From NCBI GenBank assembly GCA_020852255.1, contig JADZBD010000025.1, forward strand, positions 62,001-126,000: a stretch of DNA of 64,000 nucleotides, in the 5' to 3' direction. This DNA comes from Bacteroidia bacterium (GTDB lineage Bacteria; Bacteroidota; Bacteroidia; JADZBD01). Every line of letters begins with the position of its first letter. Within the stretch, counting starts at the first letter, position 1. Below are positions 45,506-61,072 of this stretch, piece by piece. The notes beneath the pieces were generated by a model. It had not been told where the DNA came from. It did no database searches and saw only the letters and a list, made by a program, of their open reading frames with translations. The translations under genes and the position numbers were made by a program.

Positions 45506-46540
45506 ATGAAGGGGTTTGTCACGGTAATCATATTGTTTTTTTTAACAGGAACAGCCACGGCCCAGTCGCCGGAAATAGAATTTGCCCTCAAACTTAGCCT
45601 CAAAGGAGACCATGCAGGGGCACGGGAAGCATTGCTGGATCTTCTTAAAAAAGAGCCGGCAAACCTTCGCGCTAAACTGGAACTTTCCAGAGAGCATTAT
45701 TACCTCAAAGAATGGGAGCCCTGCTTCCGCTTGTGCAGAGAGCTGCTGGACCAGAAGAAAGACACTGCCATACGCCGCCAGACGTACGTAGTGTATGGAA
45801 CCTGTCTGGATGCCTCCGGCGACCCAAAAGCCGCTGTAAAGGTCTTTAAAAAGGGCAGGGACGAGTTTCCTTCCTACTACCTAATCCCCTTTAATATGGG
45901 GGTTACGTATTATTCCATGGGAAAGAAGGAGAATGCCGCCGAGGCCCTGTATGCTTCCGCCCGCCTGAACCCCCACCATCCCGGTTCTGCTTTTTACCTG
46001 GCAGTGATCATGGACGAACAAAAGAACCGGATAGCCACCCTTTTAGCCTTGATGCGCTTTTTGATACTAGAGCAGGAGGGATCCCGGGCCCTGGCCGGGG
46101 TGGAACTGTTGGTGCGCAAAATGGAAGGCAACGTTTCAAAGGGTGACAATAACCAGATGAATATTACCGTGGAGCCGGGAAGCATGGACAAGAAAGCAGA
46201 AAACAATTTTTCAACGGTTGACCTCTTTCTTTCTTTGTCGGTGGCTACACTCTACGGGAAAGACACACAGCATACCCCGGCGGAAAAGCTGGCGAAGGAA
46301 ATTCAAGCCTTGTGCACAGCACTGGCCGCGAATGCGGAAGGACAAAAAGGATTTTTCTGGGAGTTCTATGCGCCCTTTTTCATTGCCATGGAAAAGAACG
46401 GCCACGCAGAAACACTGGCTTATGTTCTGCTGAGTTATTACACAGATCCCGGCGAAGACATTTCCGCCTGGGTGACGGAGCACCGAACCAAAGCGGACGC
46501 GTTTTTTGAATGGGAGAAAAATTATTTCTGGCCGCAGTGA
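45506..46540 (+). CDS. Exported TPR protein
   Basis: 344 residues. Signal peptide (VTVIILFFLTGTATAQ), then TPR units in the first half (AKLELSREHYYLKEWEPCFRL, VVYGTCLDASGDPKAAVKVF, PFNMGVTYYSMGKKENAAEAL, SAFYLAVIMDEQ) and a less repetitive helical C-terminal half. ATG is 1 bp after the stop of the basic protein. The 3' end overlaps the SixA-like start (GTGA), so the run from the kinase through ppx may be one long operon. Function not recognised. Confidence 0.8.
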   Translation: MKGFVTVIILFFLTGTATAQSPEIEFALKLSLKGDHAGAREALLDLLKKEPANLRAKLELSREHYYLKEWEPCFRLCRELLDQKKDTAIRRQTYVVYGTCLDASGDPKAAVKVFKKGRDEFPSYYLIPFNMGVTYYSMGKKENAAEALYASARLNPHHPGSAFYLAVIMDEQKNRIATLLALMRFLILEQEGSRALAGVELLVRKMEGNVSKGDNNQMNITVEPGSMDKKAENNFSTVDLFLSLSVATLYGKDTQHTPAEKLAKEIQALCTALAANAEGQKGFFWEFYAPFFIAMEKNGHAETLAYVLLSYYTDPGEDISAWVTEHRTKADAFFEWEKNYFWPQ

Positions 46541-47028
46541 AAACACTCATTCTGATCCGGCATGCTAAATCCGACTGGGGGAATGAGCTTCTCAGCGACC
46601 GCTACCGTCCGCTCAACGCACGCGGACATTCGGATGCGCCGGCTATGGCGGAAAGGTTACGGAACCTGGGAGTGAAACCCGACAAACTGATCTCAAGCCC
46701 GGCCCTGCGCGCAATGACCACTGCACTTTATTTTACGGAAGGATTTTCTTTGGATCCCGGCATTATTCAGATGAGCGCCGCACTATATGAAACCGGCGAG
46801 AAAGAATACCTGCGGGTGATCCGGGGAACGGAGGCGAATGTTAACACGTTGTTAATCTTTGCGCACAATCCGGTTATTACCACCCTGGCCAATCGCCTGG
46901 GCAATTTACGCACCGATAATGTTCCGACCTGCGGCGCAGCTGCTTTTCAGTTCAGGATCGGGCACTGGAGCGATGTTGAAAAGGGGGAACTCCTGTTTTA
47001 TGAGTTCCCGAAGAAAAGGCCCGAATAA
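46537..47028 (+). CDS. SixA-like histidine phosphatase
   Basis: 163 residues from a GTG at 46537 overlapping the upstream TGA; an ATG nine codons earlier (46510) is possible. Histidine phosphatase superfamily with the catalytic RHAKSDW motif and the second His in FAHNP. In E. coli the relative SixA dephosphorylates a His-phosphorylated domain. Here the gene lies between a two-component pair and ppk1; a phosphorelay target is possible but not shown. Confidence 0.87.
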   Translation: MKTLILIRHAKSDWGNELLSDRYRPLNARGHSDAPAMAERLRNLGVKPDKLISSPALRAMTTALYFTEGFSLDPGIIQMSAALYETGEKEYLRVIRGTEANVNTLLIFAHNPVITTLANRLGNLRTDNVPTCGAAAFQFRIGHWSDVEKGELLFYEFPKKRPE

Positions 47029-47032
47029 TCCT

Positions 47033-47040
47033 TAAATTCG
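47033..47040 (+). promoter_or_regulatory. Possible -7 element before ppk1 (TAAATTCG)
   Basis: Seven of eight match to TAnnTTTG ending 6 bp before the ppk1 ATG; it could allow ppk1-ppx to be expressed separately from the genes upstream. Confidence 0.3.
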
Positions 47041-47046
47041 GGCACC

Positions 47047-49107
47047 ATGCCTGCACATGTTTTTCTGATCAACCGGGAGGTTTCCTGGCTTTCCTTCAAC
47101 GAGAGGGTGCTTCAGGAAGCGGAGGATAACAGCGTGCCCTTGCTGGAGCGTTTTCGTTTTCTTGGAATTTATTCTAACAACCTGGATGAATTCTACCGCG
47201 TACGGGTGGCAGCCGTAAGGCGCATGATGAAACACGGAAAAAAGGGAGAGGAGTTTCTCGGAGAAAGTCCGGCCGCGCTCTACGACCGCATTCAGCAGAT
47301 TATCATCCGGCAACAAGCCCGTTTTGAAAGTACTTACAGAAAACTGCTCCGGGAACTGGAAAAGAGCGGAGCCCTGATCGTGAATGAAAAGCAGCTTAAC
47401 AGGGAGCAGAGCGAAGTGACCCGGCAGTACTTCCGTGAAAGTGTGATGCCGGCATTGTTTCCCATTATGGTTGACAGCGCTCCTCAGTTTCCGTACATGA
47501 AAGACCGGGCAATCTATCTCCTGGTCAGGATCGTCCGAAGAGAAAAGGAAAACAAGTACCGGTATGCGCTCATCGAAATCCCCTCTGCGCTGCCCCGGTT
47601 TTTTCGCCTGCCCGATGCGAAGGGGAAAAGATGCGTGATCCTGCTCGACGACGTGATCCGCCACTGCCTCAACGACGTGTTCCCATTTTTTGAATACGAT
47701 ACCATTGATGCCTTTACTATAAAAATGACCCGCGACGCCGAGCTGGAAACAGACAATGACATTTCGAAAGGGTTATTGGAAAAACTTTCTAAAAGCCTGA
47801 AAAAGCGGCGGAAAGGGTTCCCGGTCCGCTTCATCTTTGACGTGGAAATACCCAAGGATGCGCTCCAGTTCCTCCAACGGAAATTGCCGGTGCTCAAAGA
47901 CGAATACCTGGTTCCGGGAGGACGTTACCATAACTTCCGGGATTTTATAAAGTTTCCGGACCTCGGACTCGCCACCCTGAAATACAAAGAAGAGCCGCCG
48001 GCCCGGCACCCCGTGTTACGAAGAGAAAAAAGTTTTATCCGAGTATTGCGCAACCAGGATATTCTGCTGATGTATCCGTATCAATCGTTTAATCACACCA
48101 TTGACCTCCTGCGCGAAGCTTCCATGGACCCCAAGGTAACTGCGGTGAGCATTACGCTGTACAGGGCGGCGCGAAACTCTAACGTGGTGAATGCGCTTAT
48201 CAACGCGGCACGAAACGGTAAAAAAGTGAACGCTGTGGTGGAGCTGCAGGCCCGCTTTGATGAGGAGGCAAACATCTTCTGGTCGAATCAGCTGAAGGAG
48301 GAGGGAGTAAATGTGATTTACGGTGTGCCCGGGTTTAAAGTGCATTCCAAGCTGATCCTGATTCACAGGAAGGAGAAGGACAAGACCGCGAGGTACGCTC
48401 ATGTTGGAACCGGAAACTTTAATGAGGATACTTCAGGGGTCTACAGCGACTTTTCTTTGTTTACTGCAGACAAAAAGCTTGCAAAGGAAGTAGAGGAGGT
48501 TTTTCGTTTTTACTTCAATAATAATTACCGTCCGCAACTGGAGCAGCTTTTAGTAGCTCCGTTTAATCTCAGGAAAAGACTGATGCGCCTGATTGACGGG
48601 GAGATCAGTGAAGCAAGGGCAGGGAGAAGAGCGGAGATTTTTTTAAAAATGAACAGCCTGGTAGATAGTACGATGATCCGCAGGCTATATGAAGCAAGCC
48701 GCGCAGGGGTAAAGATCCGGCTGATCATTCGGGGAATTTGCTCGTTGGTAACAGGAACACTGCATCAGAGCGAAAACATTGAAGCCATCAGCATCGTAGA
48801 CCGTTACCTGGAACACGGAAGGGTTTTTATCTTTCATCAGGGTGGGAAGGAAAGGATATATCTGTCATCGGCCGACTGGATGACGCGAAATCTTGATTTC
48901 CGTTCAGAAGTGGCCATGCCGGTGCTCGATCCGCGAATCGCCAAAACAATAAAGCAGACAATGGAAATACAATGGTCCGACAATACCAAGGCGCGGATTC
49001 TGACTCCTATGCAGGAGAACACCTATGTGAAGGCGGGGGAAAAACCTTCGGTGCGCTCCCAGTCAGAAATCTATCAGTATCTTACCCGCTCAACACAATC
49101 GAAGTAA
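47047..49107 (+). CDS. ppk1: Polyphosphate kinase 1
   Basis: 686 residues, full length. Makes long-chain polyphosphate from ATP. Domains: N-terminal (FINREVSWLSFNERVLQEA variant), head, and C1/C2 phospholipase-D-like domains. The autophosphorylated His is at H433 (GFKVHSKLILI), with HVGTGNFNED near 452 and the later SSADWMTRNLDFRSE motif. ppx follows after 2 bp. Confidence 0.96.
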   Translation: MPAHVFLINREVSWLSFNERVLQEAEDNSVPLLERFRFLGIYSNNLDEFYRVRVAAVRRMMKHGKKGEEFLGESPAALYDRIQQIIIRQQARFESTYRKLLRELEKSGALIVNEKQLNREQSEVTRQYFRESVMPALFPIMVDSAPQFPYMKDRAIYLLVRIVRREKENKYRYALIEIPSALPRFFRLPDAKGKRCVILLDDVIRHCLNDVFPFFEYDTIDAFTIKMTRDAELETDNDISKGLLEKLSKSLKKRRKGFPVRFIFDVEIPKDALQFLQRKLPVLKDEYLVPGGRYHNFRDFIKFPDLGLATLKYKEEPPARHPVLRREKSFIRVLRNQDILLMYPYQSFNHTIDLLREASMDPKVTAVSITLYRAARNSNVVNALINAARNGKKVNAVVELQARFDEEANIFWSNQLKEEGVNVIYGVPGFKVHSKLILIHRKEKDKTARYAHVGTGNFNEDTSGVYSDFSLFTADKKLAKEVEEVFRFYFNNNYRPQLEQLLVAPFNLRKRLMRLIDGEISEARAGRRAEIFLKMNSLVDSTMIRRLYEASRAGVKIRLIIRGICSLVTGTLHQSENIEAISIVDRYLEHGRVFIFHQGGKERIYLSSADWMTRNLDFRSEVAMPVLDPRIAKTIKQTMEIQWSDNTKARILTPMQENTYVKAGEKPSVRSQSEIYQYLTRSTQSK

Positions 49108-49109
49108 GA

Positions 49110-50015
49110 ATGAAATTCGCCGCAATTGACATAGGATCCAATGCCACGCGGCTTTTATTTTGTAACGTAATTTCCCAAAACGGGAAATCCCCGGTTTTTA
49201 AAAAGGCGGAGCTGATTCGCGTACCCCTTCGCCTGGGAGAAGATTCCTTTATCCGGGGAAGAATCGGAAAAGATAAAGCGGATAAGCTGGTAACAGCGAT
49301 GCAGGCATTCAAATACCTGATTAAAGTATATGATGCCATAGACTACCGCGCCTGTGCTACTTCGGCTATGCGTGACGCCGAGAATCGCTGGGATATTGTG
49401 GACAGAATTCGCAAAGAGACCGGTATCCGGATAGAAATCATTGACGGCAAAACGGAAGCGGATATCATTTATGCCAACCACATAGAGAAGTACCTGGAAA
49501 ACGGACAGTCTTATCTCTATATTGATATTGGAGGGGGAAGCACGGAGATAACGCTGTTTTCCAACGGAAAAGTGGTCGCGTCTCAGTCGTTCAACGTGGG
49601 AACTATTCGCATGCTGCATGAGCAGATCGACAAGGAATACTGGGCCTATTTTAAAAAATGGGTGAGAGAGATTTGCGAAGGAAAAGGACCGGTAACGGCC
49701 ATCGGGTCGGGTGGAAACATTAACAAGCTCTTCAAAATGACACGTAAAAAGGAGAGCAAGCCGCTGCCTGTTTCAAGGATCAGAGAGGTGTGTGAAATGG
49801 TAGAATCGTACGCCTATGAAGACCGGGTGCGGGTGCTGGGACTGAATCCTGACCGTGCAGACGTGATCGTGCCGGCCTCAAAAATCCTGCTCAGCGTTTT
49901 GAAACAATCGCAGGCGGAAAAAATCATTGTTCCGCAGTTTGGTTTATCCGACGGCATTGTTCATCAGTTGTATGATAAATACCGCCAGAAGCAGGTGCAC
50001 CGCCTCGAAGCCTGA
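49110..50015 (+). CDS. ppx: Ppx/GppA-family exopolyphosphatase
   Basis: 301 residues from the ATG at 49110, 2 bp after the ppk1 stop; the longer frame overlaps ppk1. ASKHA-fold phosphohydrolase with P-loop motifs IDIGSNATRLL and IDIGGGSTEI and the AIGSGGNINKL segment. It corresponds to the short, two-domain form lacking the C-terminal HD domain of E. coli Ppx. It breaks down polyphosphate or pppGpp. Its stop abuts the stop of the next, convergent gene without a gap. Confidence 0.93.
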   Translation: MKFAAIDIGSNATRLLFCNVISQNGKSPVFKKAELIRVPLRLGEDSFIRGRIGKDKADKLVTAMQAFKYLIKVYDAIDYRACATSAMRDAENRWDIVDRIRKETGIRIEIIDGKTEADIIYANHIEKYLENGQSYLYIDIGGGSTEITLFSNGKVVASQSFNVGTIRMLHEQIDKEYWAYFKKWVREICEGKGPVTAIGSGGNINKLFKMTRKKESKPLPVSRIREVCEMVESYAYEDRVRVLGLNPDRADVIVPASKILLSVLKQSQAEKIIVPQFGLSDGIVHQLYDKYRQKQVHRLEA

Positions 50016-50029
50016 TTACTTTTTCAGGC
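50010..50029. terminator. Hairpin overlapping both stop codons of convergent genes
   Basis: GCCTGA / TCAGGC forms a 6-bp stem with an 8-base T-rich loop exactly across the junction of ppx and the minus-strand TPR gene (stops 50013-50015 and 50016-50018). No U-tract follows on either strand, so it is only a possible terminator. Confidence 0.35.
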
Positions 50030-51668
50030 AGTCCGGGGCAGCGGTTACGCCCTTAAACTCTGCACCGCTTTTCAGAAACTCCTGAACGCGTTTGAACTTC
50101 TCACTGCCGGTATTGAGTGCAATAATTTTTTCATAACAGCACTTGGCATAAGCGTATTCTTTGTTGGAGAGGTAGTACGATCCCAGGTAATCATAAGCTT
50201 CTTCCAGGTCTTTTTTGTTTTTTTCAACCTCTTCGGGCTTCACCAGCTCAATCACTTTGGTATAGAAGGGAAGGGCCAGCCCTTTCATCACTTTACCTGT
50301 ATCCTGTGCGGCGTTGCAGCGGCCTCTCCACACATATCCGAACGGAATCCCGCTTTGAAGGCGAATGTAGCCGGCGAACGCAGAATCTCCATATACGTAT
50401 TGTTTGGAGTAATACAGTGAGCGGCCCAGGTAGTAGTAGTCGTTCGCCACAATCTTCTTTCCGCAGAGGATTCGTTTTTGATACCACACTGCAGCGTCAG
50501 CGTGTTTTTTCATTTTGGCGTAAACGCCACCGATCTCGGCCGCCATATCACAGTTGTTGCTGTCAATCGCAAAGGCTTTCTTGAACATTTCAGCAGCCAG
50601 GGAATCTTTTCCTGACTTCTGGTAAAACTTTCCGTAATAATCATAATCTCTCGCGATAACCCGGTCCGGGGTCTGCTTGGCAAGGTACGTTTCCATGGTG
50701 GACATTCCGTTGGCCATATCACCAATTTCATAATAGCAGTATCCGATAAGCCGAAGCACTACCATATTGGACGGAACCTCTTTCTGTACTGCTTTAAGGA
50801 CATCCAGTGCCTCGGTATATTTTTTTGCGATGTAAAGAAAGATCCCATAGCGCACCCTGGCGGAAATACTGCCGGTGTTGAGCTCAAGGTATTTTTTGTA
50901 ATCCTCAAGTGCTTTTTCGATCTGGCCCATTTTGTTATAGGCTTCCGCACGCTCGCGGTACGCCGGGGCAAAATTGGGTTCAAGTGTTATGGCATCCGTA
51001 AAATATTTGGCGGCCTCCGAAGGATTATTCGCGCGCATGTACAGAATACCGCGACGAACAAGGGGCTTTGGCGAGGTTTTGTCTGCAGCCGCTGCCTTTT
51101 TGTACTCTTCAATGGCCGCACTGCCGTCTGTGGTGTTCTGCTCAAACAAAGCGTCGCCGTTCAGTACCAGGCTTTCCATGTTTTTAGGATTGATCGCCAG
51201 TGCCTTGTTAAGGTAGGAAAGCGCCTTGGGAACATCCTTTATCGGAGCATAAACATAGGCTTCGGCTATTTTCAGGTACGTATTTACCTGATGTAATTTT
51301 TGGGTTTTGTCATTTTCTACAATGGAAACTGCCTTGAAAAAATGGGTTCCGGCCTCTGCGGATTTTCCCTTGTACCAGAACACTTTTCCAATTCCGGCAT
51401 GATTGAGCGGAAAATTAGGGTTCACGGAAGCGCCTTTGTTGTAAAATAAAAGCGCCGAATCCAATTCCTCCTGGCGGAAGTAATTCTCTCCCAGATAAAA
51501 GTAGTTCTCACCGTTATTCGGCGCCTGTTGAATCAGCCGGACAAGGGTTGCTGCCGCTTTCTCGTATTGTTCATTGTCCGAAAGACGAATGGCGTCCTTA
51601 AGAGACTGTGCATGAAAAGGAACCACTGACCCGGTCAGGAGAACAGCAAGAAGGATCACTTTTTTCAT
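50016..51668 (-). CDS. Exported TPR protein next to the Ton/PstS-like genes
   Basis: 550 residues with a signal peptide (MKKVILLAVLLTGSVVPFHA). Ten or more TPR units (NNGENYFYLGENYFRQEELD, PNFPLNHAGIGKVFWYKGKS, APAYRERAEAYNKMGQIEKAL, VVLRLIGYCYYEIGDMANGM). Probably periplasmic. Begins 45 bp after the PstS-like gene in the same direction, with a possible promoter element (TATTTTCG, 51695-51702) between, so it may be the last gene of the exbB-exbD-exbD-tonB-pstS-like unit. Function not recognised; a scaffold for that complex is an inference. Confidence 0.82.
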   Translation of the reverse strand: MKKVILLAVLLTGSVVPFHAQSLKDAIRLSDNEQYEKAAATLVRLIQQAPNNGENYFYLGENYFRQEELDSALLFYNKGASVNPNFPLNHAGIGKVFWYKGKSAEAGTHFFKAVSIVENDKTQKLHQVNTYLKIAEAYVYAPIKDVPKALSYLNKALAINPKNMESLVLNGDALFEQNTTDGSAAIEEYKKAAAADKTSPKPLVRRGILYMRANNPSEAAKYFTDAITLEPNFAPAYRERAEAYNKMGQIEKALEDYKKYLELNTGSISARVRYGIFLYIAKKYTEALDVLKAVQKEVPSNMVVLRLIGYCYYEIGDMANGMSTMETYLAKQTPDRVIARDYDYYGKFYQKSGKDSLAAEMFKKAFAIDSNNCDMAAEIGGVYAKMKKHADAAVWYQKRILCGKKIVANDYYYLGRSLYYSKQYVYGDSAFAGYIRLQSGIPFGYVWRGRCNAAQDTGKVMKGLALPFYTKVIELVKPEEVEKNKKDLEEAYDYLGSYYLSNKEYAYAKCCYEKIIALNTGSEKFKRVQEFLKSGAEFKGVTAAPDCLKK

Positions 51669-51713
51669 ATAACTGTTTTTCAGTAAACGGAGAGCGAAAA
51701 TACAAAATCAGGG

Positions 51714-52661
51714 TTACTGTTTAACTTCCACAATCCGTAGCGGCATGGTGGCCGGTACTAGACCCGATTTCAGTATAATTCGCTGCCCTTTTTCACCTGC
51801 AATAAAGGCAGCAAACCCTGTGCCAAGGCCTGCACCTACCTCAACCTTAACAATATACACGTCTCGAATCAGGGGATATTGTCCCTGAGCCAGATAGGCC
51901 TGATACGGTTCAAAATACTCTTTAAACGGACCCGCGGAAATAGGCAGCACCCGCACCTTTTTCAGAAAGGAATTGGAAAGAGAGTCGTCGCGGTCACTGA
52001 GCCAGTTTACCCCTATAACCCCGATAGTGTTGGGATGTGCCGCTACATAATTGATGACCTCTTCATTGGATTTAACGGCAAAGCAGTTGCCGGGAAACTC
52101 GGCCCCCGCTTTCATCAGGGAATCTTTCATGTACCTGGCATTGCAGGAAAGTGCGTGATCAAAAACCATACGCAACGAATCTCTGTTCCCCATGGAATCC
52201 AGCTGGGCAAAGGTTTGCAACTCCCCGCTGAGTATCTGCCGGATCTGTGGCACGCTTAAACCGCGGAGTTTATTGTCGGGATGAACGATAAGGGCTACGC
52301 CGTCATATGCAATTTTGATATAGGTGGGATCCACCTTGCGCTGTTTCACCACCTGCTCTTCCTGTGCGGTTAGTTTACGCGAAAGAATGGCGAACCGTAT
52401 TGAGTCTTTCAGTAATAAGCCCACTAGCGAATCTTCGTGGGTATAGGTAAAATGTACATCTGCATCCACATACAACTGCTCAAAAGTCATTTCTTCCGCA
52501 TCCATGATAAGCCGGTAGGAATCATCGGCGCCCACGCGAACGCTGCCCGAGGTGGGCGTATCAGAATTATTCCTTTTTGTAGTGCCGGAACTGCAGCTGT
52601 GGATGAGCAATACAGCCAGCACAACGGTAAGGCACCAGAAGGTAACAGATCCGCGATTCAT
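51714..52661 (-). CDS. PstS-like phosphate-binding lipoprotein
   Basis: 315 residues. Lipoprotein signal ending in LLIHSCSS (Cys23). The mature part fits the PstS-like periplasmic binding fold (type II), for example IAYDGVALIVHPDNKL, LSVPQIRQILSGELQTFAQL, HPNTIGVIGVNWLSD and LGTGFAAFIAGEKGQRII. Classical phosphate loop residues were not verified. It is not accompanied by pstCAB permease genes but by tonB and exbBD, with only the 66-residue membrane-protein gene between it and tonB. So it is likely a Ton-associated binding protein rather than an ABC transporter part. Confidence 0.84.
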   Translation of the reverse strand: MNRGSVTFWCLTVVLAVLLIHSCSSGTTKRNNSDTPTSGSVRVGADDSYRLIMDAEEMTFEQLYVDADVHFTYTHEDSLVGLLLKDSIRFAILSRKLTAQEEQVVKQRKVDPTYIKIAYDGVALIVHPDNKLRGLSVPQIRQILSGELQTFAQLDSMGNRDSLRMVFDHALSCNARYMKDSLMKAGAEFPGNCFAVKSNEEVINYVAAHPNTIGVIGVNWLSDRDDSLSNSFLKKVRVLPISAGPFKEYFEPYQAYLAQGQYPLIRDVYIVKVEVGAGLGTGFAAFIAGEKGQRIILKSGLVPATMPLRIVEVKQ

Positions 52662-52858
52662 AGTTCCTTGTTTTGATTTTGTTCTTTACGATGTGCCCTG
52701 TATAACATGGAGGCGCGGAAAACAGCGTAGGCAAGAAACACACAGCCCCACAGCATTCGGTACTTGCTGATATGTTCCATTAACAGATCGGTGAAGATGA
52801 AAACGAACCCCGTTACGGTGTACAGCACGATCATGAACAGGGTGATTTGCTTTGACAT
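52658..52858 (-). CDS. Small two-helix membrane protein
   Basis: 66 residues with two predicted membrane helices (ITLFMIVLYTVTGFVFIF and YRMLWGCVFLAYAVFRASML) and a charged tail (RAHRKEQNQNKEL). Stop overlaps the PstS-like start (ATGA), and it follows tonB by 52 bp. The tight coupling supports a real gene. No family is recognised; it could link the Ton motor and the binding protein in the inner membrane. Confidence 0.7.
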   Translation of the reverse strand: MSKQITLFMIVLYTVTGFVFIFTDLLMEHISKYRMLWGCVFLAYAVFRASMLYRAHRKEQNQNKEL

Positions 52859-52910
52859 GTCGGGATATAATGCGCCCCGGAAGTGGTAACAACCGGGGCG
52901 CGAATGAAAC

Positions 52911-53756
52911 TTATTTCAGGTTAAAGGTAACCGGAATGAGGTAACGCACCTTAACCGGTTTACCGTTTTGTTTTCCGGCATTCCACTTGGGCATCTGCGA
53001 GATCACACGCTGCGACTCGGCACTCATGGCCGGACAGGCATTCACGCCTTTTTTTACCGCCACTTCAGAAATGGAACCATCTTTACCTACCACAAACTCA
53101 ACATATACTTTTCCGGAGATCTGGTTCTCTTTACACATCTGCGGGTAGTTTATGTTCTTCTGGAGGAACTTATACATTTCAGCTACGCCTCCCGGAAATT
53201 CCGGTTGCTCCTGAATGGCGGCCGTTTCGTATACCGTATTGTCTTCTGTTTCGGTTGGCGTTTCCACAATCGGCGGAGGTCCGTCATCACCTTCCTGGGT
53301 GATCGTTCCCACGTTCTCTGTTTTTACTTCTTCCTGTGTGGGAGGCGGTTCTTCGTCTTCCTGCTCAGAGGGTTCCGGAGGAACAAAACGAACCGAACTC
53401 ACAGGAGGAGGAGGAGGAGGAGGGGGGGGAGGAGGAGGGGTTTCCTTCTCTTCCATACTGGGCGGCTCGGTGAGCTCTACCATTTTATCGGTCAGTGGCA
53501 CTTCCACTACTTCTTCCGGCGTGAGCAAGGTAATGATAGTGGGAATGGAAAGAATGAGGGTGATCCCCAGCACAGTGGAGAGCAAAGCCAGCCCCATCAC
53601 ACGACCATACCCTCTTCGGATCTGAAACGCCCCGTAATCGGTGTGGCGCTGTTCAAAAACAAGGTTGTTGCGGGCCGCCTGGAGGACGTTGGTCCATCCT
53701 TTATCGTAAGACAAACCTACGATAATCAGCATGCCAATGATAAGAGTGATAATCAT
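52911..53756 (-). CDS. tonB: Energy transducer TonB
   Basis: 281 residues. The N-terminal region holds a transmembrane anchor preceded by a basic stretch (QRHTDYGAFQIRRGYGRVMGLALLSTVLGI), then a Pro-rich spacer with 12 consecutive prolines, and a C-terminal TonB domain with EFPGGVAEMYKFL, SGKVYVEFVVGKDGSI and the MPKWNAGKQNGKPV motif. It passes energy from ExbB/ExbD to outer-membrane receptors. The proline run is encoded by a GGA/GGG-repeat tract (about 53402-53440), a possible slippage hot spot. Confidence 0.93.
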   Translation of the reverse strand: MIITLIIGMLIIVGLSYDKGWTNVLQAARNNLVFEQRHTDYGAFQIRRGYGRVMGLALLSTVLGITLILSIPTIITLLTPEEVVEVPLTDKMVELTEPPSMEEKETPPPPPPPPPPPPVSSVRFVPPEPSEQEDEEPPPTQEEVKTENVGTITQEGDDGPPPIVETPTETEDNTVYETAAIQEQPEFPGGVAEMYKFLQKNINYPQMCKENQISGKVYVEFVVGKDGSISEVAVKKGVNACPAMSAESQRVISQMPKWNAGKQNGKPVKVRYLIPVTFNLK

Positions 53757-53769
53757 GGCGTTTCAGTTT

Positions 53770-54447
53770 TTATTTAACTCCCAGTTTAGTTAATACGTCC
53801 TTTTCAGAGTCGGAAATGTCAACGATCGCATACTTGCCGATCTGCGCAATACTCATCTCGTCCACCATATCAATCACATTTTTATAACTCGCTTTGGGGT
53901 CGGGCTTGATGATCACGGTTAGTGTAGCCTGATTTCCTTTGAGTTTCTCATCACCGGACTTGGCTTTATGTATTTCATTTTTCCGGAAATCATACAGCTT
54001 CTGAATGGAATCGTCGCTGATCTTTCCTTTCATGGCCTTTACTTCTTTTTCAATTTCCCTGAAAAGATCAATGATCCCTTTCTGTTTTTCGAATAATACC
54101 TTCCGGATGCCTTTGGTCTGGTCAAAGGAAGTCTCTACAACGGGCGTACTGCCGTCGGGGTTAAGAACACCTTCGTAGTAGAACATGCGGTCGTTGTCTG
54201 CGAGCATAATGGTGATCACATTCTTCACCTTTATGTGCGCCGTGTCGTCCTTGTCCTTGATGGGCATGGTTATCTCCATGGTAGTAGGCTTGGAGAAGGT
54301 AGCGGTCAGAACGAAGAAGGTCAGCAGCAGAAAACCCAGGTCCACCATGGGGGTCATGTCTATCCTCGTAGAGGATTTTTTTGCCCGCCGCTTCTGGTGT
54401 TTACCTCCGCCTCCGCCTCCGTCATCACCTGTTTGAACATCTGACAT
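53770..54447 (-). CDS. exbD: ExbD-family biopolymer transport protein (long form, copy 1)
   Basis: 225 residues. A basic Gly-rich N-terminus (DDGGGGGGKHQKRRAKKSS) leads to the single transmembrane helix with the conserved Asp of ExbD/TolR (MTPMVDLGFLLLTFF). The periplasmic part is longer than usual for ExbD, about 80 extra residues in the middle (roughly 80-165), before the standard C-terminal segment ATLTVIIKPDPKASYKNVIDMVDEM. Proton-channel subunit of the Ton motor with ExbB. Starts 8 bp after the other exbD. Confidence 0.9.
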   Translation of the reverse strand: MSDVQTGDDGGGGGGKHQKRRAKKSSTRIDMTPMVDLGFLLLTFFVLTATFSKPTTMEITMPIKDKDDTAHIKVKNVITIMLADNDRMFYYEGVLNPDGSTPVVETSFDQTKGIRKVLFEKQKGIIDLFREIEKEVKAMKGKISDDSIQKLYDFRKNEIHKAKSGDEKLKGNQATLTVIIKPDPKASYKNVIDMVDEMSIAQIGKYAIVDISDSEKDVLTKLGVK

Positions 54448-54455
54448 ATCCGTAA

Positions 54456-55124
54456 TTAATTAGTGGCCGGCCCTTCCAGGCTGGTCAGCAGGTTAAACTT
54501 ATGAATTCCGATCTCCTCCAGCTGGAATGTTCCGATCACCTCTTTCACCGCGATGTAGTCTGATCTTCCGTCGCCCTTGATGGCGCAGCGCAGACGGTTG
54601 TATTCTTTCGGTGCACTGAATCCCTGCTTCTGATAGAACTGGGCAGAAGCCAGGCGGGAGAAATTGATCCAGTCTTTAAGCTGATTAGTACTGGCTTTGG
54701 CAGAGTCAACGGGGATGCCCTTGTTGGATGCATAGATATTGCTGCGCTCCGTTTCAGAAGCATTGATAATATCTTTCATCTGCGTCATGGGTCCACCGAA
54801 GGACTGCATAAGTGAAAAGCGCTTGATCTCTTCTTCAGTAAATGTGATCTGGTATTTACTTCCCATCATCTGGAGCAACTCAGAACGGATTGCTTTATTA
54901 TCAATGTTGAAGAACACGCGGCCGACACTGTCAACGGTCACGGTCAGAACATCTTTATCCGGAACAGGAATGTTTTTCTGGGAAGAAGGTATAGTTACGA
55001 TCACGGGCTCTTCCGCACGGAACTGGGCGGTGAGCATGAAGAAGGTCACCAGCAGAAACGCAAGATCCACCATTGGCGTCATATCCAACTCGGGACTGTT
55101 CTTTGGCATTTTGATCTTTGGCAT
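54456..55124 (-). CDS. exbD: ExbD-family biopolymer transport protein (long form, copy 2)
   Basis: 222 residues. The membrane helix carries the conserved Asp (MTPMVDLAFLLVTFFMLT). As in the other copy, the periplasmic part has a long insertion (roughly 80-165, including FTEEEIKRFSLMQSFGGPM) before a C-terminal segment RCAIKGDGRSDYIAVKEVI. Two different ExbD proteins encoded together suggest a hetero-oligomeric ring with ExbB. Second gene of the operon exbB - exbD - exbD - tonB. Confidence 0.9.
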   Translation of the reverse strand: MPKIKMPKNSPELDMTPMVDLAFLLVTFFMLTAQFRAEEPVIVTIPSSQKNIPVPDKDVLTVTVDSVGRVFFNIDNKAIRSELLQMMGSKYQITFTEEEIKRFSLMQSFGGPMTQMKDIINASETERSNIYASNKGIPVDSAKASTNQLKDWINFSRLASAQFYQKQGFSAPKEYNRLRCAIKGDGRSDYIAVKEVIGTFQLEEIGIHKFNLLTSLEGPATN

Positions 55125-55180
55125 AGATCCCCTGCTTTTAGTATAGTGATGACATTTTCATTAAAATTCCATACTGCCGC

Positions 55181-55996
55181 TTAATTTTTTGCGGCAAAGG
55201 TTTGAGACACAGAGAATCCGGCTTCATCAATACCATAGGTGAGCGAGTCAATACGGTTGGTGAAATAGTTGTACATCACAATGGCGATCGCCGACCCGCC
55301 GATACCCAGCGCCGTATTAATAAGCGCCTCAGAGATACCGGTAGAAAGAGCTACTGTGTCAGGAGCACCGGCTTGTGCAAGAGCCTTAAAGGCCTTGATC
55401 ATACCGAGTACGGTTCCCAGCAGGGCCACCAGCGTGGAAATGGTGGCACAGGTGGAAAGAATAATCATATTCTTGGAGAGCATGGGAAGCTCCAGCGCAG
55501 TGGCCTCTTCCAGCTCCTTCTGAATGGCAGCCAGCTTTGCTTCTTTATCCATGGAGGAATCTTTGTCTACGGCCTTGTACTTCTCAAGTCCGGAACGGAG
55601 CACATTGGCCACAGAACCGCGCTGGCGGTCGCATTCTTCAATGGCGGCGTCAAACTGTCCGTTGGAAATGAGATTGCGTACGTTGCGGATGAAGCGCTCA
55701 ACGTTGCCGCGCCCTTTGGCTTTAAAAATGGTGAGAAAGCGCTCAACGGAGAAAGCAATGATGGTGAGCACAATGGTTATGAGAAGGGGAACAATAGGAC
55801 CTCCCTTGTAAACGAGTCCGTACCAGCTTCCGATACCTTCTTTGATGGGATGGCCTTTGTCGGGATCTCCTCCCTCAAAATTGTCCGGGCTACCCAGTAC
55901 AAACATGTAAAACCATACCGATAATCCGAACAGGACCGGAATAACGATGAATGGCAGGATGGACGACAGTGATCCTGATGATTTTTCGTTGCTCAT
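55181..55996 (-). CDS. exbB: ExbB/TolQ/MotA-family proton channel subunit
   Basis: 271 residues from the ATG at 55996 (MSNEKSSGSLS); an in-frame start 60 bp upstream would place translation close to the promoter element and is rejected. Three membrane helices fit ExbB: one after the N-terminus (FIVIPVLFGLSVWFYMFVLG), one near residue 90 (VPLLITIVLTIIAF) and two in the C-terminal half around ISTLVALLGTVLGMIKAFKAL, the conserved MotA/TolQ/ExbB motif. First gene of a leftward unit with two exbD genes, tonB, the small membrane protein and the PstS-like lipoprotein. Confidence 0.92.
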   Translation of the reverse strand: MSNEKSSGSLSSILPFIVIPVLFGLSVWFYMFVLGSPDNFEGGDPDKGHPIKEGIGSWYGLVYKGGPIVPLLITIVLTIIAFSVERFLTIFKAKGRGNVERFIRNVRNLISNGQFDAAIEECDRQRGSVANVLRSGLEKYKAVDKDSSMDKEAKLAAIQKELEEATALELPMLSKNMIILSTCATISTLVALLGTVLGMIKAFKALAQAGAPDTVALSTGISEALINTALGIGGSAIAIVMYNYFTNRIDSLTYGIDEAGFSVSQTFAAKN

Positions 55997-58232: not shown

Positions 58233-59618
58233 CTATTTTACTATTTCTATCCCCAGCAACAGGTCAGGATATATACCCAGTGCAATAAGGAAGACCACAC
58301 ACACCAGCAGGATCATCCGGTGTGGTACGGAAAGCTGAACATCCTGCGAATCCGGCTCTCTGTAATACATGCAGATGATCAGGCGGAAATAGTAATACAC
58401 TCCCACCAGCGACCCGAGGATTCCCACCACTGCCAGCAGCACATGCCAGGGCATGCTGAGCTGAAGGAGGGAGGAGAGGATGCTGTACTTGGCAAAAAAG
58501 CCGGCTACCGGAGGAATTCCTGCAAGCGAGAGCATTCCCACCGTGAGGGAGAATGCCAGCAGCGGACTTTTCTTCGCAAGACCGTTGAACTGATCAAAGG
58601 TGTTGAATCCGGTGGCGATGAGCGCCGTGAACGCAATGAAAGAAGCAAGGGCGTAAGCTGCGGCGTAATAGAAAAGAGCGCCAACCGCATCTATATTCAT
58701 TGCGATGATGGCCATAACCATGAATCCGGCATGTGACACACCGGACCATGCGAGCATCCTTTTCACACTTTGCTGGTAAACAGCGGTTACATTTCCGATG
58801 ATCAGGGAGAGGGCGGAGAGCACCATTAACACATTCATCCAGGTGTCGTTCACCCCGGTCATGGAATAAGCCATCAGCCGGAAAAAAGCCGCAAAGGCAG
58901 CGGTTTTCACAATGGTGGCCATAAAAGCGGTAACCGGTGTGGGTGCTCCGGTATATACATCGGGAGCCCAGGTATGGAAAGGAGCGAGTGAGACCTTAAA
59001 GGAAAGTCCGGCTACAATCAGGAGTACACCGGCATAAAGGAAACCGGGATGTGGAACAGAGGTAGTGTGCAGTGCATTGCTGATTGTCTGGAGATCGAGA
59101 CTGCCGGTGGCGCCGTACAAAAAAGCCAATCCAAAAAGAAGGAAAGCGGAGGCGAAGGCTCCCATGAGAAAATACTTGAAGGCACTTTCGTTGGATTCCA
59201 GGGAATCTTTTTTACTGCCCGCCAGCACGTATACGGGAATGGAGAGAATTTCCACACCAAGGAAGAACATGGTGAGGTTGTTAAAGGAAACCAGAACAAC
59301 TGCGCCGGTGATTGCAAACAGGGTAAGTACGAAATGATCGGAAACGGAAGTTGCGGTCTGGATATATTGGTTAGACATCACGTACCATATGATGGCCATG
59401 AAACAGATAAGAATGGTAAATGCCGCTGCGTAATTGTCGAAGCGGATCATATTATTGAATATGGCAGGCAGCGAAGCATTGCCCCATCCGATCACGGAGG
59501 CCACGATAGTGGCAAGCATCCCCAGTACCACCAGGGGAAAAATAAGTGAACGCAGTTTTCCCAGTTCTGCAAGCAGGGCCAGCAAACCCACGGAAGAAAG
59601 AATGATGAGAGCGTTCAT
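58233..59618 (-). CDS. nuoN: NADH-quinone oxidoreductase subunit N
   Basis: 461 residues, about 14 transmembrane helices. Antiporter-like proton-pumping subunit of respiratory complex I. Evidence: YFLMGAFASAFLLFGLAFLYG, FKVSLAPFHTWAPDVYTGAPTPVTAFMA, and KRMLAWSGVSHAGFMVM with the conserved Lys and His in the ion path. Overlaps nuoM by 4 bp, as in normal nuo operons. Confidence 0.95.
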   Translation of the reverse strand: MNALIILSSVGLLALLAELGKLRSLIFPLVVLGMLATIVASVIGWGNASLPAIFNNMIRFDNYAAAFTILICFMAIIWYVMSNQYIQTATSVSDHFVLTLFAITGAVVLVSFNNLTMFFLGVEILSIPVYVLAGSKKDSLESNESAFKYFLMGAFASAFLLFGLAFLYGATGSLDLQTISNALHTTSVPHPGFLYAGVLLIVAGLSFKVSLAPFHTWAPDVYTGAPTPVTAFMATIVKTAAFAAFFRLMAYSMTGVNDTWMNVLMVLSALSLIIGNVTAVYQQSVKRMLAWSGVSHAGFMVMAIIAMNIDAVGALFYYAAAYALASFIAFTALIATGFNTFDQFNGLAKKSPLLAFSLTVGMLSLAGIPPVAGFFAKYSILSSLLQLSMPWHVLLAVVGILGSLVGVYYYFRLIICMYYREPDSQDVQLSVPHRMILLVCVVFLIALGIYPDLLLGIEIVK

Positions 59619-61072
59619 TTAGCGAATCCGGTGCTGTTCAACAATACTTCTACGGCCGGAGAGGCGATGTCCAGCAAGGGGGAGGGGAATACGCCGAAAA
59701 GTACAATTACCAGTGCCAATATGGTCAGGATCCATTTTTCGTTGCCGCCGATTTCGGAAAACGAAGAAGTAATGCCATTGGTTTCACCCAGCATGATTCC
59801 CTGGTAAGAGCGCAACATGTACACTGCGCCGAGTATCACGGTAAGGCCTGCGAAGATTGCCGTCCATAACCCGTACTGGAAAACGCCGGTGAGAAGCAGC
59901 ACTTCTCCCACAAAGCCGTTGGTGAGCGGGAGGGCTACGCTTCCCAGCATCACTATGAGGTAAAGCACAGCGAATGCAGGAGCTACGTTGCGGATGCCGC
60001 CGAGGTCGGAAATGGTTCTGGTTTTGGTGCGGGAGTCAATGATGTCGGAAATGAAAAACAATCCCACCACATTGATCCCGTGTGCTACCATTTGAATGAC
60101 CGCACCGGTGATTCCCTGCGTGGTCAGGGAGAAAGTTCCCGCTACAATGAGTCCAACGTGTGCGATGGAAGAATAGGCGATGAGGCGTTTAAGATCTGTT
60201 TGAACAATGGCAATGCAGGAGGCGTAAACGATACCGATTACAGAAAGCGTCATCACCAGCCCGCTCCATTCCTGTACTGCGCCGGGCACCACAGGCAAGA
60301 GCCAGCGTAAAAGACCATAGGTTCCCATTTTAAGCATTATTCCTGAGAGGAGCATGGTTCCCGGGGTGGGAGCAGAGGTGTAGGTATCGGGCTGCCATGT
60401 GTGAAAGGGGAAAATGGGGATCTTGATGGCGAAGGCGAGGAAGAAACACCAGAAGACAAATGTTTGTGCTCCGGAAGAGAGGGCATGGCCGGCGGCGTAA
60501 AGATCCCGGATGGCGAAGGAACCTTGTGTATGCCGGTAGAGATAAATAAGTCCGATCAGCATGAAGAGTGATCCGGCGAGTGTGTACACGAAAAATTTAA
60601 ATGTGATGCGCGCCCGGTCTTTTCCGCCCCAGAGCAGGCAGATGAACCAGATGGGGATGAGGGCAAGTTCCCAGAAGATGTAGAACAGAAAACCGTCCGT
60701 GGCAGTAAATACTCCCAGCAGGGCCATCTCCATGAAAAGAATAAGGGCGTAGAAGACGTTTGTGTTTTTGTAATCGTGCCTGAATGAGGTAAGGATGATG
60801 AAGGGCACAAGGGAAGTTGTGAGCAGCACAAGTAGTATAGAAATACCATCTGTGTTGAGGGCGATGTTTGCGCCGATGGAACGAATCCAGGGAAGATTAC
60901 AACCCAGCAGTCCGTTGGGATCCTGCGATTGAAAAACATAAAAGGCGGCAGCCGACAGGCAGAACACAAGCAGAGAAGAAACAAAGGCGAGCCGTTTGGC
61001 TTGTGCGGGCGGCGAGACCAAAAGAAGCAGTCCGCAAAGCAGTGGAAGAATGAGAAGCGCCAGCAATAGCAT
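59615..61072 (-). CDS. nuoM: NADH-quinone oxidoreductase subunit M
   Basis: 485 residues, polytopic. Second antiporter-like subunit of complex I. Evidence: FWELALIPIWFICLLWGG with the key Glu, AFAIKIPIFPFHTWQPDTYTSAPTPGTMLLSG, and LKRLIAYSSIAHVGL. In the usual order nuoL lies directly upstream, but here nothing resembling nuoL precedes it within the window. Whether nuoL is elsewhere or lost cannot be seen. Confidence 0.95.
   Translation of the reverse strand: MLLLALLILPLLCGLLLLVSPPAQAKRLAFVSSLLVFCLSAAAFYVFQSQDPNGLLGCNLPWIRSIGANIALNTDGISILLVLLTTSLVPFIILTSFRHDYKNTNVFYALILFMEMALLGVFTATDGFLFYIFWELALIPIWFICLLWGGKDRARITFKFFVYTLAGSLFMLIGLIYLYRHTQGSFAIRDLYAAGHALSSGAQTFVFWCFFLAFAIKIPIFPFHTWQPDTYTSAPTPGTMLLSGIMLKMGTYGLLRWLLPVVPGAVQEWSGLVMTLSVIGIVYASCIAIVQTDLKRLIAYSSIAHVGLIVAGTFSLTTQGITGAVIQMVAHGINVVGLFFISDIIDSRTKTRTISDLGGIRNVAPAFAVLYLIVMLGSVALPLTNGFVGEVLLLTGVFQYGLWTAIFAGLTVILGAVYMLRSYQGIMLGETNGITSSFSEIGGNEKWILTILALVIVLFGVFPSPLLDIASPAVEVLLNSTGFAK

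Follow-up and report, generated by a model that had tools for sequence, protein, structure and literature searches.

Bacteroidota rely heavily on TonB-driven uptake. Among the described Ton systems, the closest to the locus analyzed here is TonB2 (TonBB) of Riemerella anatipestifer, whose motor genes, exbB-exbD-exbD-tonB2, are the same as those found in this work (PMC4446302, PMC10986502, PMC8383284). Fe3+ uptake is driven mainly by TonB2, which is also one of two systems that drive hemin uptake (PMC4446302); TonB2 serves the receptors RhuR and RhuB (PMC10986502), and its loss leads to lower iron content and lower transformation (PMC8383284), the mutants being viable with uptake defects (PMC4446302, PMC8383284). 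In Flavobacterium psychrophilum, according to work cited in PMC9331221, an exbD2 mutant grows poorly under iron limitation. The papers on R. anatipestifer TonB2 cover the motor only and do not treat as its parts the three proteins that are the subject of this work.

Two other described systems resemble the locus in part. The Tol-Pal genes (tolQ-tolR-tolA-tolB-pal-cpoB) form a similar row of motor, transducer, lipoprotein and TPR genes; tol-pal loci have been reported to be absent from Bacteroidetes (PMC12204202). The phosphate-binding protein PstS (TIGR02136, PF12849) has its fold and lipoprotein form in common with one of the proteins encoded here.

A TonB2-type motor and three adjoining genes

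The window, that is, the whole stretch of 64,000 nucleotides that was analyzed, comes from a Bacteroidia genome of 3.28 Mb that is 99.8% complete. Seven ORFs located on the same (-) strand at 50016-55996 encode ExbB, two ExbD proteins, TonB, a small membrane protein (SMP), a PstS-like lipoprotein (PBP) and a TPR protein (Table 1). The gaps between them, in the order from exbB to TPR, are 56, 8, 13, 52, -4 and 45 bp. All frames of the one-directional run described in an earlier note on this DNA were present, its short gaps or overlaps measured between -4 and 56 bp, and Pfam agreed with each name except SMP, which matched no Pfam family.

Table 1. Coordinates of the cluster genes and of the hairpin in the window
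Feature	Coordinates	Strand	Description
exbB	55181..55996	-	271 aa, MotA/TolQ/ExbB proton channel; Pfam MotA_ExbB PF01618 3.1e-28
exbD1	54456..55124	-	222 aa, long ExbD, membrane motif DMTPMVDLAF; PF02472 5.9e-19
exbD2	53770..54447	-	225 aa, long ExbD, membrane motif DMTPMVDLGF; PF02472 1.8e-18
tonB	52911..53756	-	281 aa, proline-rich spacer and TonB_C domain; PF03544 4.3e-16
Hairpin in the tonB/SMP gap	52862..52891	-	GCGCCCCGG-12 nt-CCGGGGCGC; coordinates approximate to 1-2 bases
SMP	52658..52858	-	66-aa membrane protein, two predicted helices; no Pfam family
PBP	51714..52661	-	lipoprotein (Cys23), PstS fold, rebuilt ligand site; PBP_like_2 PF12849 2.7e-29
TPR	50016..51668	-	550-aa TPR superhelix with signal peptide; many Pfam TPR models

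The motor proteins have the main features of their families. ExbB matches the proton-channel family, both ExbD proteins match theirs and carry the membrane-embedded Asp in the DMTPMVDL motif of the first helix, and TonB is composed of a membrane anchor, a Pro-rich spacer and the C-terminal domain. Both ExbD proteins are indeed long, as had been noticed earlier, when compared with the 149-aa open frame of the genome's other ExbD. The latter belongs to a second, compact motor, tonB-exbB-exbD (C2:157583-159050), and the genome also contains 15 Plug-domain matches.

In one of the relatives (L071) the gene order is leuS-exbB-exbD-exbD-tonB-SMP-PBP-TPR, matching the published R. anatipestifer TonB2 locus (PMC4446302), and another (L073) has the same arrangement from leuS to TPR, but with a single exbD called. 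We take this arrangement as the same locus as R. anatipestifer TonB2, although leuS, which adjoins the motor there, is not found beside the window locus. Judged by synteny, the motor is a known TonB2-type system and corresponds to TonB2 of R. anatipestifer. The earlier suggestion that the role of the assembly had not been worked out does not hold for the motor, while for SMP, PBP and TPR, unstudied in the literature searched, it stands. These seem to be three conserved proteins without a history of study: our literature search, in which subscription journals were mostly not covered, found no study of them as Ton-system parts. The motor half is not new.

Members of the SMP family contain the motif G-x(2)-L/I-x(2)-Y-G/A-x-Y/F-R, and the reading frames of SMP and PBP overlap in 94 of the 120 loci. 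Near-perfect palindromes (e.g., AGAAGAAATCGCTC-AAA-GAGCGATTTCTTCT) were observed in the first codons of SMP in L041, L042, L044, L045, L058 and L154; they encode a conserved KS-x-KxRFL stretch. The fold search with TPR returned generic TPR proteins with the exception of 3u4t, the solved C-terminal half of a homologue from Cytophaga hutchinsonii (Q11TI6, 32% identity). It is known as a structure alone, corresponds only to the C-terminal half of the window protein, and the literature search found no paper on its function.

Conservation of the cluster across Bacteroidota

To describe the distribution of the cluster, the PBP profile was run over 296 Bacteroidota genomes, matches of 200 bits or more being considered strong and of cluster type. 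About 75 of the 296 genomes, as counted from the listing, have such a PBP; the others have true PstS only, a more divergent type that often occurs in tandem, or none. Since many genomes of the phylum lack such a PBP, Ton function in Bacteroidota can do without the module.

The gene neighborhood was studied in 60 regions picked by the PBP match alone (single-sequence search). After removal of five pst operons, nine divergent PBPs and two regions with too little flank, 44 regions from 19 families remained. TPR was the next gene in 44/44 of them, SMP preceded PBP in 42/44, tonB was located upstream in 38/44 and the full motor in 34/44. Similar values were obtained for the 68 named loci with enough flank (TPR, 67; SMP, 68; tonB, 60; full motor, 60). 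The motor genes thus travel with SMP, PBP and TPR, and the suggestion of the earlier note that they form a conserved Bacteroidota assembly is borne out by gene order across the phylum. Because this order recurs across Bacteroidota, it cannot be ascribed to chance.

Changed gene orders were also revealed: (i) in one clade of a single origin (support 99) the order is SMP-PBP-TPR-exbB-exbD-exbD-tonB (L100, L105, L127, L132, L147); (ii) in L161 the motor lies on the strand opposite to SMP-PBP-TPR; (iii) in L035, L043 and L051 SMP-PBP-TPR are present with no motor in view. The changed orders still hold the parts together, and SMP-PBP-TPR remains a unit in loci with a displaced motor. Among 20 control regions with weaker PBP_like matches, 19 were pst-type loci with adjoining pst genes or porin, and none of these 19 contained a Ton motor.

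It should be added that the L100 record is titled Alphaproteobacteria bacterium INTA.CYC.164. It carries a cluster of the Bacteroidota type, falls among Bacteroidetes rows and is probably a mislabelled or contaminated MAG. A search of viral contigs with six short patterns revealed no relative. In L064, L066, L069, L079, L080 and L091 the PBPs are divergent and often occur in tandem; in most of these six loci the next genes encode a GGDEF protein and a permease of the FtsX/MacB type, and in L066 the PBPs are preceded by tonB and a gene for an SMP-like protein.

PBP has the PstS fold and an altered phosphate site

The structure model of PBP (pLDDT 91) has its best fold matches among solved phosphate-binding proteins, with a TM-score of 0.90 by target length to phosphate-bound 4gd5, and its fold is therefore that of PstS. 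The lipobox Cys is present in 130 of the 132 PBPs. At the same time, the protein scores 78.9 bits with the PstS family model TIGR02136, under the cut-off of 206.6, and lacks the PstS motifs GSDT, GGGSG and RE-x-x-SGT. In true PstS from this phylum the three phosphate loops carry the motifs KGSDT, GGGSG and S/G-R-E-x-x-S-G-T, whereas their counterparts in Bacteroidia-clade cluster PBPs are (V)DE(S/T), PE and FDN-x-x-SS. R95 and S172 are common to both groups, and three phosphate-site positions have become acidic in the Bacteroidia clade (S to D46, S to E76, R to D168).

We also compared the net charge over ten columns, which we take to be the phosphate site from the PstS family motifs and established knowledge of PstS, not from a residue-by-residue alignment with a ligand structure: it is -3 in 94 of the 132 cluster PBPs versus +1 in 21 of the 23 PstS, and is unchanged by the presence of one true PstS with a nearby TPR gene (L083_31) in the cluster set and of five PstC pieces without the site in the pstS set. 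In deeper lineages the phosphate motifs are also absent, with other residues in their place, so that an acidic pocket characterizes the Bacteroidia clade and not the whole group. In the tree, cluster PBPs split from the pst-linked proteins with support of 99 once L083_43, a PstC piece, is excluded.

No pstC, pstA or pstB gene adjoins PBP. The absence of pstCAB pointed out in the earlier note is thus confirmed for the locus; it does not extend to the genome, which has a complete pst operon with its own pstS on another contig (G000:C9), consisting of pstC-, pstA-, pstB-, phoU-like and porin-like genes named by sequence resemblance. Since this operon exists, we rejected the idea that PBP is an orphan PstS. 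By its sequence PBP is not a phosphate protein, contrary to its initial description as a phosphate-type binding protein, and the label 'phosphate-binding protein' attached to this gene in many genomes is probably wrong.

The cluster is converged upon by genes for a sixA-like phosphatase, ppk and ppx/gppA (46510-50015), a neighborhood that is not conserved in relatives. We considered a polyphosphate link and rejected ppk and ppx as a part of the system because no relative examined has them beside the cluster. Phosphate scavenging by a PstS-type protein powered by TonB, implied in the earlier note, could draw on these two genes and on the PstS fold, but given the lost motifs, the complete pst operon elsewhere and the lack of the ppk/ppx linkage in the relatives examined we regard it as highly improbable.

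The acidic changes, together with the retained R95 and S172, speak for another scheme, in which PBP is a periplasmic carrier that takes a non-phosphate ligand (e.g., a metal ion or a cationic nutrient) brought in by TonB-dependent receptors and passes it to an unlinked inner-membrane importer. The service of TonB2 to iron uptake in R. anatipestifer (PMC4446302) is consistent with it. However, genes for a permease or a receptor are not conserved next to PBP, deeper lineages of the same group differ at the acidic positions, and SMP and TPR are left unexplained; we consider such a carrier unlikely.

Expression of the cluster and possible roles of SMP, PBP and TPR

The hairpin in the tonB-SMP gap has a perfect 9-bp G+C stem (-23.6 kcal/mol, z -3.9). 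A perfect stem of at least 9 bp within 110 nt after tonB was found in 31 of 100 relatives with the full motor, a fraction that is not a probability, the relatives being non-independent; the same search after exbB, exbD1, exbD2 and PBP, four junctions of the same genomes, gave 1, 0, 3 and 0 of 100, and shuffles gave 0. Many of the stems after tonB are preceded by an A-run and followed by a T-run, like bidirectional terminators, and therefore the motor and the module may differ in expression level. In view of the hairpin a single transcript for the seven genes should not be assumed. It suggests separate expression of the motor and SMP-PBP-TPR, and could possibly be an attenuator or a processing site. 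Scans for sigma-70 promoters and terminators gave no more sites than in shuffles, the tonB-SMP hairpin being beyond the loop limit of the scan.

Taken together, the data are best explained by a TonB2-type Ton system (ExbB-ExbD-ExbD-TonB) with a dedicated envelope accessory module, SMP-PBP-TPR, that positions or gates TonB, an explanation to which we give an even chance. Gene linkage and sequence were observed directly, and from them we infer localization, contacts and function. SMP would reside in the inner membrane with ExbB/ExbD, PBP would probably be anchored at the outer membrane on its periplasmic side, and the TPR superhelix would serve as a periplasmic scaffold joining PBP to TonB or ExbD, so that the three together could hold TonB in position, or gate it, in the space between the two membranes. 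Rather than importing phosphate, the PBP fold may then serve to dock or sense a protein or a ligand other than phosphate. SMP, PBP and TPR would in that case be missing parts of the Bacteroidota Ton machine.

Several observations argue for an accessory module: the linkage in the 44 regions and its agreement with the 68 named loci, the cohesion of the parts in spite of changed order, the overlap of the SMP and PBP frames, the loss in cluster PBPs of phosphate motifs that PstS keeps, the pst-type controls without a Ton motor, and the identity of the L071 gene order to the published TonB2 locus. In addition, receptors in E. coli were not energized when the TonB2 complex was provided without SMP, PBP and TPR (PMC4446302), but this failure has simpler reasons, namely foreign receptors and a foreign host. 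Against the module stand the hairpin after tonB, the many Bacteroidota genomes without such a PBP, and the outer-membrane site of the lipoprotein, which we infer only; furthermore, no physical interaction, co-expression or mutants of SMP, PBP or TPR were found in the literature search.

The order of the kinds of parts (motor, transducer, lipoprotein, TPR) raises the question whether the cluster replaces Tol-Pal, with the motor, SMP, PBP and TPR doing the job of TolQRA-TolB-Pal-CpoB in linking motor and outer membrane during division. The reported lack of tol-pal loci in the phylum agrees with this, as does the window genome, in the whole of which the TolB N-terminal domain (PF04052) had no match. 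Nevertheless, no part of the cluster matches TolB or Pal: the Pal-type OmpA domain (PF00691), which binds peptidoglycan, is absent from PBP and from the other cluster proteins, and a CpoB trimerisation domain in TPR is not among the 18 Pfam matches. The likeness to Tol-Pal is one of layout only, and the defining homologies are lacking. Moreover, the known TonB2 phenotypes are uptake defects in viable mutants (PMC4446302, PMC8383284), many genomes have no PBP, and 19 OmpA-domain matches in the genome could provide the tether instead. A replacement of Tol-Pal is thus improbable. The same low credence applies to a related variant, in which SMP, PBP and TPR would form the periplasmic arm of a Bacteroidota trans-envelope machine that resembles Tol-Pal and is driven by Ton, the PstS fold having changed from a phosphate carrier into a mechanical or docking part.

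Finally, PBP might report periplasmic conditions and tune the motor or a sensor. In 11 deeper-lineage loci (L046, L059, L060, L061, L062, L067, L068, L084, L086, L089, L090) exbB is preceded on its own strand by genes for a histidine kinase and a response regulator of the sigma-54 type, and in divergent loci a GGDEF protein gene comes after the PBP gene. Yet adjacency does not equal function, and the window and most Bacteroidia have no linked regulator, which makes such ligand-sensing control about as improbable as the Tol-Pal schemes, if not slightly more so.

The nuo (NADH dehydrogenase) genes, found in the window at 58233-61072, recur on either side of the cluster, downstream in L041, L044, L053, L055, L056, L057, L063, L072, L107, L124 and L154 and upstream in L100, L131, L147, L148 and L153, and in L046, L062 and L092 the gene after TPR encodes an H+-pyrophosphatase. 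That proton pumps are located close to a motor driven by protons may be due to chance or to shared housekeeping.
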